From positions 372,001 through 436,000 of the forward strand of contig NZ_CP029480.1 of assembly GCF_003258705.1 (NCBI RefSeq): 64,000 nt of DNA, given 5' to 3'. The position numbers and the translations under genes were made by a program. Shown here piece by piece: positions 47,942 through 53,445 of this stretch (position 1 is its first letter; every line of letters starts with the position of its first letter). The notes below the pieces were generated by a model. The model was not told the origin of the DNA. It was given only the letters and a program-made list of their open reading frames with translations, and did not search any database. Source of the stretch: Arcticibacterium luteifluviistationis. Its GTDB lineage: Bacteria; Bacteroidota; Bacteroidia; Cytophagales; Spirosomataceae.

Positions 47942-48226
47942 TCAATTAGGATTCCAATTTTGATAGACAACTGGCACAGAATAAATCTCCTTTAAGGCAT
48001 CACCACACCTCGCTTCAAGTGCCTTATGAATAGAACTAAACTCAGAGGCTTTTGATATAAAAGAAAGCTTGTGAACAGTCTCTTTTACCACTTTATCGTT
48101 TTCAATAATGAAGTGTTCTCGCGTATAATCTACCTCTACAGATACCGCTAGGTTCTCCTTTAACAGCCATTCTGAAATTTGAATGAGCAAATCCTTATTA
48201 TTGATTAATAAATGAATTAATACCAT
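47942..48226 (-). CDS. Small CutA1-like protein (tentative)
   Basis: 94 residues, no signal. The order of elements resembles CutA1: helix L-L-I-Q-I-S-E-W-L-L-K-E-N-L-A, strand V-E-V-D-Y, strand L-S-F-I-S-K-A, helix, then E-I-Y-S-V-P-V-V-Y-Q-N-W-N-P, which parallels the closing E-I-x-x-x-P-V ... Y-x-x-W of CutA1. The usual C-V-N-I and W-x-G motifs are absent, so the match is remote. It starts 9 bases after the TolC gene and is the last gene of the export operon. A trimeric binding protein with a regulatory role is possible. Confidence 0.5.
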   Translation of the reverse strand: MVLIHLLINNKDLLIQISEWLLKENLAVSVEVDYTREHFIIENDKVVKETVHKLSFISKASEFSSIHKALEARCGDALKEIYSVPVVYQNWNPN

Positions 48227-48235
48227 AGTTTTAAT

Positions 48236-49621
48236 TTATGCTGAGGGCACTAGCAAACCAGCCGCCCATTGTTGTTTAAAATAAGCTTTCAAATACTTAA
48301 AATTGACCTCTAATAATTTCTTACGAGCATCTATGAGTTTGTTTTCTCTCGAAATTATTAAGAATAGAGAACTCTCTCCTTGACTAAATTTTAATTCTTC
48401 ATTTCTTAAAAGAAAACCGTAGTTCTCGGCTAATTCGCCAGCGGTAATTATCTGCTTTGCTAGCAAGTCTGTTTCTACTGCATACTGTCTAATCTTGTTC
48501 TCTATGCTCCAAGTTTTTTGCTGTTGTTGCAGCGTAGTTTCTTGTATTTTGAAATTAGTCTTAGCAAACTTACCCCTACCTTCTCTCAGAAATAATGGAA
48601 TTTTGAAGTCTATTCCAAATTTGTAATTGTTAGAAAAATATGGGTTCACTGCATATTCCGAGGAGAAATAATCCTTCCCAAGCAAGTTGTACTTCAAATC
48701 TAAGGTAGGAAGCATTGATTGTCTATTGAGCTTGCGTTCTACACCAAGTCCATCCAGTTTAAACTGATACGTTTTAAGCTCAGGGTGGTTTAGCTTAGCT
48801 AAAGCTACCATGTCGTCAATCTGCTCATTTTCCAGTTTTGAAGGCATGTTTTGTGGCTTTTGAGATTCATCCAACAAATAAGGATTCCCTTCTTCATCCC
48901 ATAAATATGCAGCCAAACCTATGGCATTCTTTCTCAAAGAAATGAACGCCTCTTGACTTAGCAAATCAATGTTTTGGACCTGTAAATAGGCTTCCACCGT
49001 ATCTGCACGAGATTTATAGCCATTATCAAAACCGAGTTTTGTCATCTCCAGCCTTTTCTGAGCATTGACGCTTTGCCCTTTTAAGAGCTCATTGTTTTGA
49101 AAGGAAGATGCCCAAAGCCAATACTGCTCTACTGCCTCTAAATAAATATCATTTAACATTTGCCGCTGCTCTTCTGTACTTTGAGAAACCATGAACTCCG
49201 CTTGCTTTCTAGCAGCTCTTTGATTATCCATAAGCAGTCCTTTAAGTATTGGCAACTCCAAACCCATGTAAGACAAGTTTCCGGGCGTTTGCTGAGGGTT
49301 TAGATACTTTCCTGAGCTATATTCATTCCCCGCCTTCACTCGCAATCCATAAGGTGTTTGCAGTTTAATCTCTGGGTTTTGAATGGTATAATACTCATCG
49401 CCTGCCAAAGTTTTGTTATCAGACTGGTAAGCCAATACAGGGTCAAATGCACCTTTTGTAGCCAAATAACTCGATCGAAACTGATTTACGTTAGCTTCTG
49501 AAACCTTAAAAGCGGGATGATTTTCTTCGAAAATTCTTAAGAAATTCTCAAAAAACAGCACCTCCTGCCCCACTGATAAAAATGGGAGTAAAAGGGCTAA
49601 GAATATTAATCTAAATTTCAT
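48236..49621 (-). CDS. TolC-family outer-membrane efflux protein
   Basis: 461 residues with signal peptide (ends L-S-V-G-Q). Two helical hairpin halves typical of TolC: A-N-V-N-Q-F-R-S-S-Y-L near 45 and L-A-E-N-Y-G-F-L-L-R-N-E-E-L-K-F-S-Q-G-E-S-S in the second half, the latter being the usual G-x-S/T closing motif. It provides the outer-membrane tunnel for the adaptor and ABC protein encoded just upstream. Its ATG overlaps the adaptor's stop (ATGA). Confidence 0.92.
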   Translation of the reverse strand: MKFRLIFLALLLPFLSVGQEVLFFENFLRIFEENHPAFKVSEANVNQFRSSYLATKGAFDPVLAYQSDNKTLAGDEYYTIQNPEIKLQTPYGLRVKAGNEYSSGKYLNPQQTPGNLSYMGLELPILKGLLMDNQRAARKQAEFMVSQSTEEQRQMLNDIYLEAVEQYWLWASSFQNNELLKGQSVNAQKRLEMTKLGFDNGYKSRADTVEAYLQVQNIDLLSQEAFISLRKNAIGLAAYLWDEEGNPYLLDESQKPQNMPSKLENEQIDDMVALAKLNHPELKTYQFKLDGLGVERKLNRQSMLPTLDLKYNLLGKDYFSSEYAVNPYFSNNYKFGIDFKIPLFLREGRGKFAKTNFKIQETTLQQQQKTWSIENKIRQYAVETDLLAKQIITAGELAENYGFLLRNEELKFSQGESSLFLIISRENKLIDARKKLLEVNFKYLKAYFKQQWAAGLLVPSA

Positions 49622-50973
49622 TTCGCTTTCGTTTTAGCTGATGTGCCTTCCTGTTGATAATACTCTGGCGGGAAACCATTGATATTTCGCCATAGCTCGT
49701 AATAAATACGAACATCTTTAAGCAAGGCAATACCTTTTGCTCCGCCTCCCATTCTAAGTGTTTCTGGCCATTTTCTTTCTTCTGGGTCTTCGGCTACAAG
49801 TACCCTAAATTTGCCATTAACACTTACCGAGGTTTCTACGGTGGTAATTACACCACCAAAAGTACCATAGCTATTCTTTGGCCAGCCACTAAATACTATC
49901 ACCGGAAAACCATCAAAAACCAATCTTACCTTTTGTCCAATTTGAATTAAAGGCAAATCCATAGGCTCCACAAACATCTCTACGGCATAATTCGGGTTAA
50001 CAGGAACTATCTCCACTATATTTTCCCCTTCTTTCAACACCTCTCCTATCCCTGATTTTCTAGCTTTGGTAATCTGCCCATCTTGCGGAGCTAAAATGTA
50101 ATAGAGTTCTTGCCTAGCATCATAATTTGCTAATTGGTTTTCCAATTTTGCAATCTCCGCTTCCCCATTCGCCGCCAAAGAAATACTGCTATATCGCTCT
50201 CCTTCGGTTTTTGATAACTTTTCTAAATACTCTTGAATTACACTGTTCTTATCTATCTGAAGATTAAGATATTCCTGCCTACTCTGTGAATACTTATTCT
50301 CTGAACTGTTGAGCTTTGCAATCCCGTCTTGGAAAGCAATTCTACGTTTTTCAAAATCTGTTCTAGAGATTGCACCACTATCTAACATGGTTTGAGCAGC
50401 CTTAAACTGTCTATCATAAGCCATAAATGCATTTTTTGCTGCTATTAGCGACACACTGTCACTTGATATTTTCATCTGCTGTTGCCCTAGTTTATTATCA
50501 ATAGACTGAAGCTTAAACTTTCTTGCAGATCCTAATGCTTCCATTTGTTTACCAGCAGTTTGAGCCTTTCCTTGGTAGGCATTAATGCTTCCTTTTTTTG
50601 CATTTATTTGCTCTTGTGTTCTAGCAATAAGTACAGGGTCAAAATACTCTACTTTTACTTCTCCAAGCTTTAAAATAGTATCTCCCTTTGAGACAAAGTC
50701 TCCTTCTTTCACATACCATTTTTCTATTTTACCGGGAATAATAGTGTTTAATTCCTGTGGACGGTCTTCTTGTCTTAATGTACTTACTTTTCCTGTAGAT
50801 CGAATATTTTGCGTCCAAGGCAAGAATAAAACAATACCAAACAAGATGCCCAAGCCTAAAAACCATCTTAAGGCTGAGTTTCGTTTGTCAATTTTATATA
50901 TCTCAGAAAATGCTTTTACGCTCCCTCTTAAATCCTTTTTCAAGAAGGTGTTTCCATCAAAATGATTATTCAT
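49618..50973 (-). CDS. HlyD-family periplasmic adaptor
   Basis: 451 residues. One N-terminal membrane helix near 35-55, then a lipoyl-like half (G-K-I-E-K-W-Y-V-K-E-G-D-F-V-S-K-G-D near 85), a long coiled-coil hairpin (about 115-275), the second lipoyl half (A-P-Q-D-G-Q-I near 290) and a beta-barrel domain. It links the inner-membrane transporter to TolC. It overlaps the ABC gene by 8 bases upstream and the TolC gene by 4 bases downstream, so the three are translated together. Confidence 0.93.
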   Translation of the reverse strand: MNNHFDGNTFLKKDLRGSVKAFSEIYKIDKRNSALRWFLGLGILFGIVLFLPWTQNIRSTGKVSTLRQEDRPQELNTIIPGKIEKWYVKEGDFVSKGDTILKLGEVKVEYFDPVLIARTQEQINAKKGSINAYQGKAQTAGKQMEALGSARKFKLQSIDNKLGQQQMKISSDSVSLIAAKNAFMAYDRQFKAAQTMLDSGAISRTDFEKRRIAFQDGIAKLNSSENKYSQSRQEYLNLQIDKNSVIQEYLEKLSKTEGERYSSISLAANGEAEIAKLENQLANYDARQELYYILAPQDGQITKARKSGIGEVLKEGENIVEIVPVNPNYAVEMFVEPMDLPLIQIGQKVRLVFDGFPVIVFSGWPKNSYGTFGGVITTVETSVSVNGKFRVLVAEDPEERKWPETLRMGGGAKGIALLKDVRIYYELWRNINGFPPEYYQQEGTSAKTKAK

Positions 50974-52639
50974 AACTAATTTCTCCGTTTTTCAATGTGA
51001 TAGTTTGGTCTGCTAAATTTTGACAGTAATCATCTTTAGAAGTTATTATTACCGTACTTCCGTCTGCTTTTAATTTGGCAGTCAAATCGTCTTTTTGAAC
51101 TTGATTTAGAAAACTGAAAGGTTCTTCCATCACCACCAGACTATGTTTCCCTATTAGTGCCCTTGTTAGTAAAATTTGATGCCTTATTATGGCAGAAATC
51201 CTTTTACCAACGGGATCTAAAACGCTGTCATACCCATTTGGCAAACCTTGAATAAAGACATCCAAGCCAGTAATTTTAGCCATTGCACTAATATGCTCTA
51301 GGCTAATATCTTCCGTACACAAGCTTAAATTTTGTAATACAGTACCTTCAAAGATGTTTTGGTGACCTAACAAAATGCTCGTTTGATTTCGAAGAGAATC
51401 AATGTCATAATTCCTGATGGGTATACCATCTATCAAAATCTTACCAGTAAAATCTTGAAAAGCCCCTGTTAACATTCTTAGAAGCGTAGTTTTACCGGCA
51501 CCACTGCTTCCTTTAATTAAAAGCCACTCTCCTTTGGCCACTTCTAAGTTGATATTTTTTAGTTGAATATTAGAAGGATGATAGGCAAAAGAGACATCTT
51601 CAAAACTTATAGATACAGAAGGCTTTGTTGGACTTAATATTATGCTCCCGGTATGCTCAACATCTGCCTGGGCTACTTTATTAAGCTTTTCAACGGCAGT
51701 TAAAGACTCATAAACCTGGTCCATATTTACTATTAGTTTTTCTACGGATGCTATAATGGCTATAATCACAATGTCAGATGCAATGAACTGACCAATGTTT
51801 ATTTGTTGCTGTGTAAGAAGTGTAACACCCAAAATAAGCATTGCAGCGGTAATAAGTAACTTAAATGAAATCATACTCCAATACTGCACTTTCAAAACTG
51901 CGAAGTGCTCTGTTCTGGCCCGAACATATTTAGTACTTATCGCATCTGTTTTATCCAAATGAAACCTTGTATCTCTTGCGTACTTAAAGGTCTTTATACT
52001 ACGAGCCATTTCCTCAAACCAGCCTAAGGTCTGATACTTATAATTAGATGTTTCCATGGACGTTTTAAAACCTCTAGCCGAGGTAAACCGGATAATCAAA
52101 ACAACTATCAAAAGTAAAACTAAACCAAACGCGATAAAGAGAGGATGATAAAAAGCCAGTAAAATAGTACCTAAAAGTATTTGAATGATAGAGGCCGGAA
52201 TATCTACTAAAAGCTTGTGAAGGCTTTTCTGTAAACTGGCAACATCTATAAAGCGATTGACCAGTTCTGGTAAATGGTAGGCATCTAATTTAGAAATATC
52301 TAGCTTTGGAAGCCTGTGAGCGTACTCCATAGCATACCTCACAAATATTTTCTGTTCTATTTTCTCTATAATTTCTAGCTGCCTAACCTGTAACCAACCA
52401 GATAAAAAGGTACCTGTTAAAACCATCGCTATTAAAATACCAATGGAGGTAGACATCTGTGCTGCCATCACAAAAGTTATGATGCTTTGAATACCTAATG
52501 GCAACGAAAGTGCCACCAAACCTGCAAAAACAGAATAAATATAAATAGCAGATATATCTTTCTTATCGAGCCAGAGTAGCCTAAAAATCTTACTTAGGGC
52601 TTGAGTAATAGTGGTTTCTAAATATTTTTCTTTTGCCAT
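50966..52639 (-). CDS. ABC exporter half-transporter with degenerate ATPase motifs
   Basis: 557 residues: six membrane helices (about 25-300) and one ATPase domain. The Walker A G-S-S-G-A-G-K-T near 378 is intact. The signature normally L-S-G-G-Q reads G-K-R-I-S near 480, the Walker B end reads V-V-M-E-E-P (E for the usual D) near 502, and the switch His is absent (I-I-T-S-K). There is no C39 peptidase domain. No second half-transporter is encoded nearby, so it would form a homodimer with two weak sites. Start ATG 52639 is chosen over GTG 52657 because a -7 box overlaps the latter. First gene of the export operon. Confidence 0.9.
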   Translation of the reverse strand: MAKEKYLETTITQALSKIFRLLWLDKKDISAIYIYSVFAGLVALSLPLGIQSIITFVMAAQMSTSIGILIAMVLTGTFLSGWLQVRQLEIIEKIEQKIFVRYAMEYAHRLPKLDISKLDAYHLPELVNRFIDVASLQKSLHKLLVDIPASIIQILLGTILLAFYHPLFIAFGLVLLLIVVLIIRFTSARGFKTSMETSNYKYQTLGWFEEMARSIKTFKYARDTRFHLDKTDAISTKYVRARTEHFAVLKVQYWSMISFKLLITAAMLILGVTLLTQQQINIGQFIASDIVIIAIIASVEKLIVNMDQVYESLTAVEKLNKVAQADVEHTGSIILSPTKPSVSISFEDVSFAYHPSNIQLKNINLEVAKGEWLLIKGSSGAGKTTLLRMLTGAFQDFTGKILIDGIPIRNYDIDSLRNQTSILLGHQNIFEGTVLQNLSLCTEDISLEHISAMAKITGLDVFIQGLPNGYDSVLDPVGKRISAIIRHQILLTRALIGKHSLVVMEEPFSFLNQVQKDDLTAKLKADGSTVIITSKDDYCQNLADQTITLKNGEISYE

Positions 52640-52656
52640 ATTTAATATCGTTTGCA

Positions 52657-52664
52657 CAAATGTA
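52657..52664 (-). promoter_or_regulatory. -7 promoter box of the export operon
   Basis: On the minus strand this reads TACATTTG, an exact TAnnTTTG. It lies 17 bases before the ATG at 52639 and excludes the upstream GTG as start. Confidence 0.65.
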
Positions 52665-52767: not shown

Positions 52768-53445
52768 ATGCAGGGAGATTTCAACATTAAGTTAAACGAG
52801 AAGCTATACCTAAAAGATCCTAATAGTACCCCTATTGGAGAAAAAATAGTTAAAGAAGGTCTCAAAATGCTTTCTGAGAAGGGATATGAGAACTTTACCT
52901 TTAAAAAGCTATCTAAAGAAATTCCTACCACGGAGGCTACTATATACCGTTACTTTGAAAACAAACATAAGCTTTTAATATACCTTGTAGACTGGTATTG
53001 GGCGTTTTTAGAGTTTCAGGTGACTTTTCACCTCAATTCTGTTGCAGAGCCAAAGGATAAAATAAAGAAGATTATTGACCTATTAGTCTGGGAAGACAGA
53101 GCCAATACTTTTTTTAGTCACCTGGAGCCAAAGTCTCTTTATGATTTGGTGATTGCCGAAGGCAGTAAAACATACCTTTCTAAAGAAGTGGATGTAAATA
53201 ATAAGGAAATGTTATTTAAACCTTATAAGGATTTATGCAGCATGATTGCCCAAATTTTCAAAGAATACAAACCAAACTTCAAATACAGCCATTCGCTTGC
53301 CAGTACATTAGTAGAAACTGCTCACTTTCAGCATTTCTTCATGGAGCATCTACCACGGTTATGTGATTTTTCGACAAATAAGGATAGTCAAGAGTTAAAA
53401 AACTTCTTAGAAAATCTAGTTTTCGGCACCATGGATAGAAGCTAA
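52768..53445 (+). CDS. TetR-family transcriptional regulator
   Basis: 225 residues. The N-terminal TetR helix-turn-helix has I-V-K-E-G-L-K-M-L-S-E-K-G-Y-E-N-F-T near 28-45 and T-E-A-T-I-Y-R-Y-F-E-N-K-H-K-L near 55-70, the usual recognition helix. The C-terminal ligand domain is helical and unspecific. It is divergent from the ABC-HlyD-TolC operon across a short region with a palindrome, so it most likely represses that operon and itself. The ligand is unknown. Confidence 0.92.
   Translation: MQGDFNIKLNEKLYLKDPNSTPIGEKIVKEGLKMLSEKGYENFTFKKLSKEIPTTEATIYRYFENKHKLLIYLVDWYWAFLEFQVTFHLNSVAEPKDKIKKIIDLLVWEDRANTFFSHLEPKSLYDLVIAEGSKTYLSKEVDVNNKEMLFKPYKDLCSMIAQIFKEYKPNFKYSHSLASTLVETAHFQHFFMEHLPRLCDFSTNKDSQELKNFLENLVFGTMDRS

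Follow-up and report, generated by a model that had tools for sequence, protein, structure and literature searches.

An ABC exporter half-transporter with a degenerate nucleotide-binding domain in Arcticibacterium luteifluviistationis, and relatives that lack the domain

The window analysed here, a 64,000-nucleotide stretch of Arcticibacterium luteifluviistationis DNA (contig NZ_CP029480.1, positions 372,001 to 436,000), contains a compact operon for a tripartite exporter whose ABC protein departs from the canonical ATPase motifs. The first gene of the operon (50966-52657, minus strand) encodes a half-transporter of 563 amino acids (aa) when read from its GTG; an in-frame ATG lies six codons later, at 52639. 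Pfam ABC_membrane and ABC_tran were both detected in the protein above their cut-offs, and together with the alignment and a predicted model they place the transmembrane domain (TMD), the conserved core of the family, at aa 20-330 (51668..52600, minus strand) and the degenerate nucleotide-binding domain (NBD) at aa 345-563 (50969..51625, minus strand). There is no N-terminal domain ahead of the TMD, and thus no C39 or C39-like domain as in the PCAT and HlyB subtypes. The gene for a HlyD-type periplasmic adaptor (49618..50973, minus strand) overlaps the exporter gene by 8 nt, and the gene for a TolC-type outer-membrane channel (48236..49621, minus strand) overlaps the adaptor gene by 4 nt; both were assigned from their open reading frames (ORFs) and a scan of the window proteins. 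A TetR-type regulator, recognised by Pfam, is encoded divergently (52768..53445, plus strand). A preliminary description of this DNA, made from its letters, had reported adaptor, TolC and TetR partners, overlapping genes and a single ATPase in the operon, and the gene content agrees with it on all of these.

The window protein combines a TMD with an NBD fold, as type IV ABC exporters do, and its Walker A is intact as previously described (G-S-S-G-A-G-K-T-T, aa 383-391, 51485..51511; this and all following motifs lie on the minus strand and were located by alignment). Thr390 within Walker A and the A-loop Tyr359 (51581..51583) are kept. The other catalytic columns have changed: the Q-loop Gln column holds Gly431 (51365..51367), the signature column reads I-S-A-I-I (aa 487-491, 51185..51199) in place of LSGGQ, the D-loop Asp column is N518 and the switch-His column is Lys541 (51035..51037). 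Walker B reads V-V-M-E-E (aa 508-512, 51122..51136) followed by Pro, in which the Mg-binding Asp has become Glu (E511) and the catalytic-Glu position is still Glu (E512). Neither the Walker B Asp-Glu pair nor the switch His of a type IV exporter is therefore present, and both changes had been recognised in the preliminary description. The loss of the signature is real as well, but the G-K-R-I-S quoted for it begins three residues early and covers only the first two signature positions. A signature sited elsewhere in the protein was considered and rejected, since the register of the alignment is fixed by Walker A, by Walker B and by a post-signature Arg499 that is present in 65/65 NBD-bearing members of the clade described below. 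The same genome encodes four other PF00664 exporters, and these are canonical at the motif columns, with LSGGQ (three) or LSVGQ (one) as signature and A/S-H-R at the switch; one of them has Asp-Asp in Walker B.

On the alignment, the substitutions are a trait fixed across a clade of Bacteroidota. The comparison comprised 93 family rows, made up of the window protein, 12 named Bacteroidota loci and rows from other genomes of the same phylum. The family rows collected are not an even sample, as they consist of the named loci, the best or most telling genome matches and, beyond these 93, TMD-only frames added later. A tree of the TMDs of these rows splits them into 15 and 78 with a support of 100 in the Shimodaira-Hasegawa-like approximate likelihood ratio test (SH-aLRT); the TMD trees are quick trees, midpoint-rooted for drawing. 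The 78-row clade contains the window protein and has 65 rows with an NBD and 13 without. Among the 65, LSGGQ is intact in none (0/65) and no His occupies the switch column (0/65), although in L011 and L013 a His follows one or two columns later. The Walker B Glu is found in 18/65 and the Walker B Asp in 10/65, next to a Walker A Lys in 63/65 and an A-loop Tyr or Phe in 59/65. In the 15-row sister clade the Walker B Asp-Glu is complete (15/15), the switch His is present in 12/15 and four signatures are of the LSTG type (three LSTGQ, one LSTGE). Counted over seven canonical catalytic letters, rows of the window's clade keep 1-4, those of the sister clade 4-6 and the four canonical exporters of the window genome 6-7. 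The homologue alignment that had been suggested as a check thus indicates fixation, and a one-off mutation is rejected by the signature count. Homologues with canonical motifs, which would have pointed to such a mutation, occur only in the deeper sister clade, and there incompletely. At one locus (L159, 5617-7272, minus strand) even Walker A is lost in the alignment (Y-E-H-P-L-F-V-R-T) and the TMD, HlyD and TolC remain; it is possibly a separate end stage.

The clade also contains members without any NBD. The 13 found among the first 78 rows have genes of 332-369 codons, and the start of their HlyD gene ranges from 23 nt within the TMD gene to 69 nt beyond its end; ORF starts were set at the first ATG, GTG or TTG, and gaps to HlyD are therefore rough. 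With 43 more, 56 such genes of 329-385 aa were collected from 54 genomes. Their proteins end 21-41 residues past alignment column 315, before the expected start of the NBD, and HlyD and TolC genes follow in all 56 loci (13/13 and 43/43); across these, the HlyD start lies between 50 nt within the TMD gene and 121 nt behind it. Among the NBD-bearing rows other than the window, HlyD was found in 61/64 and TolC in 60/64; in the sister clade each was found in 12/15, with some contigs being short. The genome searches used a loose first look, which missed the window's own HlyD although the protein scan found it, so that their negatives are not exhaustive. In a sample of 150 genomes from the window organism's own taxonomic family, 138 encode the exporter family at 143 loci, and 51 of these, in 49 genomes, are TMD-only frames, defined as open frames of <430 aa with full TMD coverage (two partial rows, G482 and G539, are excluded from the 51 and included in the 143). 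Across the phylum, 97/395 genomes encode the family at E 1e-40 or better, and by the same rule 6/98 listed loci are TMD-only.

In a tree of 136 rows, the 56 NBD-less proteins form one side of a branch with an SH-aLRT of 100, as do the first 13 in the 93-row tree. The 136-row tree used the simpler LG+G4 model and gave a warning that long branches meet in one pair of NBD-bearing rows. Several independent losses, which had been suspected from the presence of NBD-less frames in taxonomic families coded f1, f17, f12 and f22, are rejected on account of this grouping in the trees; from them, one loss of the NBD with later spread, or an old paralogy, seems more likely. Some genomes hold an NBD-bearing operon together with one or two NBD-less ones and thus allow both forms to be compared within one cell: G031 has one of each (L059, L080), and G474 has the NBD-less L218 and L220 together with a 577-aa frame. 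In the 93-row tree the NBD-less rows nest among ten NBD-bearing rows, none of which has the Ser/Thr after the Walker A GK, the Walker B Glu or the switch His (0/10 each). Therefore, the chemistry of ATP hydrolysis was probably lost before the domain itself.

Loss of the NBD is accompanied by loss of one stretch of the TMD. At aa 223-232 (51962..51991, minus strand), which we take by its position, from what is known of type IV exporters, to be coupling helix 2, the match of the NBD-less proteins to the family consensus is 0.66 below that of the ten NBD-bearing rows nearest to them; elsewhere in the TMD the largest drop is 0.26 (mean 0.06, standard deviation 0.10). F224 is kept in 64/65 and K225 in 61/65 of the NBD-bearing members, and the NBD therefore still seems to dock on the TMD in these. 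In the NBD-less proteins the residues following 225 diverge. Thirteen NBD-less genomes were searched with a model of the family's NBD and no family-type NBD in trans was found. As yardsticks, two family NBDs scored 314 and 286 bits, both being part of the search model, and among the matches listed those above 125 bits all lay in frames of at least 583 aa, i.e. in full exporters. Twelve of the 13 genomes hold a single TMD of the family. In two genomes of one genus, a gene for a stand-alone ABC ATPase, recognised by Pfam, lies past the NBD-less operon (L072, 13019-13864, plus strand; L188, 625-1470, minus strand). The L072 protein matches general ABC ATPase models, and a histidine-kinase gene separates it from the operon; we judge these ATPases to be most likely unrelated to the pump and probably part of a neighbouring ABC system.

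The TMD is better conserved than the NBD in every comparison within the window's clade (2080/2080 pairs of 65 rows; mean identities 49.7 and 31.9). A control set of 17 orthologues of a canonical exporter shows the reverse order, with means of 57.9 for the TMD and 69.5 for the NBD and a higher TMD identity in only 11/136 pairs. In 17 diverse rows of the family, 35 TMD columns are invariant. Ratios of nonsynonymous to synonymous substitution rates (dN/dS) for the NBD were at most 0.134 in 9/13 NBD-bearing pairs with finite dS, but dS was saturated in most pairs and the window gene is in none of them. The sole unsaturated pair (L015/L017) gave values of 0.056 (NBD) and 0.008 (TMD), and the only NBD-less pair compared (L073/L076) gave 0.039 for its TMD. 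The earlier statement that the system is not decaying fits the operon and the purifying selection on related NBDs, but it misses that the ATPase has been eroded over evolution and lost altogether in one lineage.

Charged residues lie within the hydrophobic membrane helices at five aligned positions of the window protein (minus strand): an acid in TM3 (D152, 52202..52204), a base in TM5 (K266, 51860..51862), and in TM6 an acid that is Glu in most relatives (D295, 51773..51775) and the pair E306-K307 (51737..51742). Charges at these five positions are kept in 64 or 65 of the 65 NBD-bearing rows. Among the 56 NBD-less proteins, D/E152, D/E295 and K307 are each present in 56/56, and K/R266 and D/E306 each in 55/56. 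The four canonical exporters of the window genome are uncharged at 266, 295 and 307, with one Glu at 152 and a base at 306 in two.

A predicted model of the window protein, built from a 13-row alignment, has the layout of an exporter and is of modest confidence, with a predicted local distance difference test score (pLDDT) of 75.6 and a predicted TM-score (pTM) of 0.49. The pLDDT falls below 50 at residues 1-9, 119-124, 221-229 and 333-338, the middle two of which are putative coupling regions. Fold matches in the PDB are type IV exporters (TM287/288, TAP, PCAT1, MsbA and HlyB). Foldseek and VIA matches to exporters reached Z 25-27, at root-mean-square deviations (rmsd) of ~14-17 A over whole chains in which the placement of the domains differs; the NBD of the model fits that of TAP1 with an rmsd of ~2 A. 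By sequence profile the nearest solved TMD is that of ComA (8hf6, E 1e-11); the next ones, ABCB10 and PCAT1, match much more weakly (E ~1e-4). ComA, PCAT1 and HlyB are type I secretion or peptide exporters with canonical ATPases, and the window protein differs from them in that it has neither a peptidase-like domain at its N-terminus nor the ATPase motifs, whereas the HlyD and TolC partners are common to HlyB and the window operon.

The closest precedent for an ABC-type TMD that works without an NBD is SbmA/BacA (SLiPT), which is described as proton-driven and has a ladder of conserved glutamates (PMC13316013). The authors propose an origin from a YddA-like full-length ABC protein by loss of the NBD and coupling helices; some of the ladder glutamates are already present in YddA, which has an NBD (PMC13316013). 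The membrane charges of the window family offer a parallel, as they occur in the sister clade too and so predate the loss of its ATPase. Membership of the window family in SbmA/BacA was rejected: PF00664 was hit by 17/17 aligned members, and the 13 families that gave matches (E up to 1) include no SbmA/BacA model. The window protein, which keeps both NBD and coupling helices, also differs from SLiPT proteins in this respect; in its 56 NBD-less relatives, the stretch of putative coupling helix 2 is missing along with the NBD. SbmA is an importer of peptides, whereas the HlyD and TolC genes of the window operon suggest export; in addition, degenerate intermediates survive in the window family, the window protein among them. 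Two engineered truncations provide a second parallel. NBD-less MsbA-MD transports ethidium on an ion gradient, less efficiently than the full-length protein (PMC4979069), and LmrA-MD moves ethidium on ion gradients, LmrA needing the TM6 glutamate E314 (PMC6155054). MsbA-MD and LmrA-MD are laboratory truncations, whereas the truncation in the window family is natural and common.

Taken together, the sequence comparison gives a clade that has lost the hydrolytic motifs but conserved the TMD and the genes for adaptor and outer-membrane channel, with a nested lineage that has no NBD and still keeps the operon. We propose, with a probability of about 0.5, that the TMD works without ATP hydrolysis and is probably ion-coupled, the window NBD being a residual ATP-binding or structural module. 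The suggestion in the preliminary description that the pump is driven or gated differently gains support from the fixed substitutions and from the conserved relatives without an NBD. The protein would act as the inner-membrane half-transporter of a tripartite exporter of ABC-type TMD, HlyD and TolC, in which the TMD would carry the substrate without ATP hydrolysis; the most likely driving force would be an ion gradient, coupled by way of the helix charges D152, K/R266, E/D295, E306 and K307. The NBD of the window protein, which keeps Walker A, A-loop and docking stretch, may serve as an ATP-binding stabiliser or gate of the TMD but would not power it. The step from the absence of an ATPase to ion coupling is taken by analogy, and it is the parallels with SbmA, MsbA-MD and LmrA-MD that favour an ion-coupled exporter. 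The substrate is perhaps a small amphiphile or peptide, as the TetR gene and the ComA/PCAT1-like TMD weakly suggest.

Several observations weigh against this proposal. The sister clade, which keeps most catalytic residues, also has the membrane charges (14-15 of 15 rows; K307 in 11/15), and they are therefore older than the loss of the ATPase and not specific to it; they could be structural or contact a helix of HlyD. The TMD is ahead of the NBD in the sister clade too, less strongly (72/105 pairs, 48.7 against 41.8), and such a pattern is therefore no proof of a dead ATPase. In the putative docking stretch, residue 225 of the NBD-less members changes only from Lys to Arg (53/56), a mild substitution. 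The margin of the search in trans was modest, since the only independent family NBD (G031) reached 186 bits and the best canonical one 171, and the genomes hold many other ABC ATPases. TetR adjoins the gene in only 28/64 NBD-bearing, 30/56 NBD-less and 0/15 sister-clade loci. In the LmrA study, truncated LmrA-MD gave no ATP-induced current (PMC6155054). Lastly, the NBD appears to be under purifying selection in the comparable pairs and most members keep the Walker A Lys, so that ATP binding seems possible, and in the window protein, with its E512, even slow hydrolysis.

This last point leads to the main rival for the window protein, namely that its NBD binds ATP and slowly hydrolyses it in an unusual way, or that ATP binding gates the TMD as at the degenerate sites of CFTR or TmrB, the NBD-less branch being a later, separate specialisation. 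Walker A, the A-loop Tyr, Thr390 and Glu512 in the window protein, the retention of the Walker A Lys and the aromatic A-loop residue across the clade, the low NBD dN/dS and the docking residues F224 and K225 all agree with such a role. Still, the Walker B Glu is rare, the signature and switch His are absent throughout, these positions are variable, and the family persists without any NBD in many genomes, which makes this explanation a doubtful one. For the NBD-less branch the main rival is a TMD that serves as scaffold, plug or passive gate anchoring a HlyD-TolC conduit driven only by the gradient of the substrate itself. Such a part would explain why loss of the NBD is tolerated and would fit the adjoining HlyD and TolC genes at every NBD-less locus collected; however, the conserved acids and bases in the helices and the 35 invariant TMD columns exceed the needs of a bare anchor, which we would expect to simplify, and we consider it unlikely.

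It seems more improbable again that the half-transporter has a partner encoded elsewhere, either a canonical half or a stand-alone NBD. Heterodimeric exporters with one degenerate site are well known: TM287/288, TmrAB, CFTR and TAP have lost signature, Walker B or switch residues at one site, and a different half provides the canonical site that they retain. Candidates for a partner could be sought among the four other PF00664 proteins of the window genome and, for NBD-less members, in the stand-alone ATPases at L072 and L188, and family and canonical NBDs are only 15 bits apart in the one independent case. The window operon, however, encodes no partner half, the NBD-less genomes with one exception hold a single family TMD, the stronger of the NBD matches listed all belong to full exporters, and putative coupling helix 2 was lost along with the NBD, which would be unexpected if an NBD still docked there. 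Finally, the loss of the ATPase motifs and the graded erosion of the NBD might be read as decay of the genes, or the TMD-only frames as assembly or frameshift artefacts. This is highly improbable in view of 56 genes from 54 genomes that end 21-41 residues past column 315 with HlyD overlapping or at most 121 nt behind, their grouping in a single clade and the low TMD dN/dS of L073/L076.

If the TMD is indeed ion-coupled, the family could tentatively be regarded as a second natural case, arisen independently, of an ATP-driven ABC exporter that has turned secondary-active, here for export through HlyD/TolC, with near-canonical, degenerate and NBD-free stages alive in Bacteroidota and the window protein as the middle stage; we hold this somewhat less firmly than the loss of ATP-driven transport. 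By analogy, such a change is not categorically new, as SbmA is already an ABC-type TMD turned secondary transporter. What would be new is the direction of transport implied by HlyD and TolC, the commonness within the family and the preserved intermediate stages. An open-access literature search for NBD-less or degenerate Bacteroidota exporters, SbmA-like cases and this operon returned no paper that describes the family in its title or the start of its abstract. The case for pumping by the membrane half of an ABC exporter without an ATPase has so far consisted of the engineered MsbA-MD and LmrA-MD and the importer SbmA, and a common natural exporter family with an ATPase-less branch, intermediates and named TMD residues to mutate makes the question directly testable. 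It could also imply that the annotation "ABC transporter ATP-binding protein" in these bacteria covers proteins that are not ATPases.

Some further features of the family and the operon were noted. Seven matching records are labelled as plasmids (four Riemerella, two Persicobacter, one Aureibacter), and the three loci inspected on such records keep the NBD; Pfam shows it in Persicobacter, and for Aureibacter and Riemerella it is judged only from length (550 aa) and annotation. One of these records, the 102-kb NZ_CP081938.1 of Riemerella anatipestifer (L164), has murB, rsmI, fabG and a gene for a Mur ligase/alanine racemase next to the operon and may be a chromosomal piece labelled plasmid. In the window, a 94-aa ORF after the TolC gene (47942..48226, minus strand) had no match in a Pfam or NCBIfam scan; the three operons closest to that of the window (L052, L053, L054) have it too, and it is a possible fourth gene of the operon. 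Relatives of ~710-765 aa (L064-L066, L068-L071, L082-L086 and L088-L091) have an N-terminal extension of ~150-200 aa, for which the proteins scanned gave no Pfam match above cut-off; the extension is absent from the window's own subclade.

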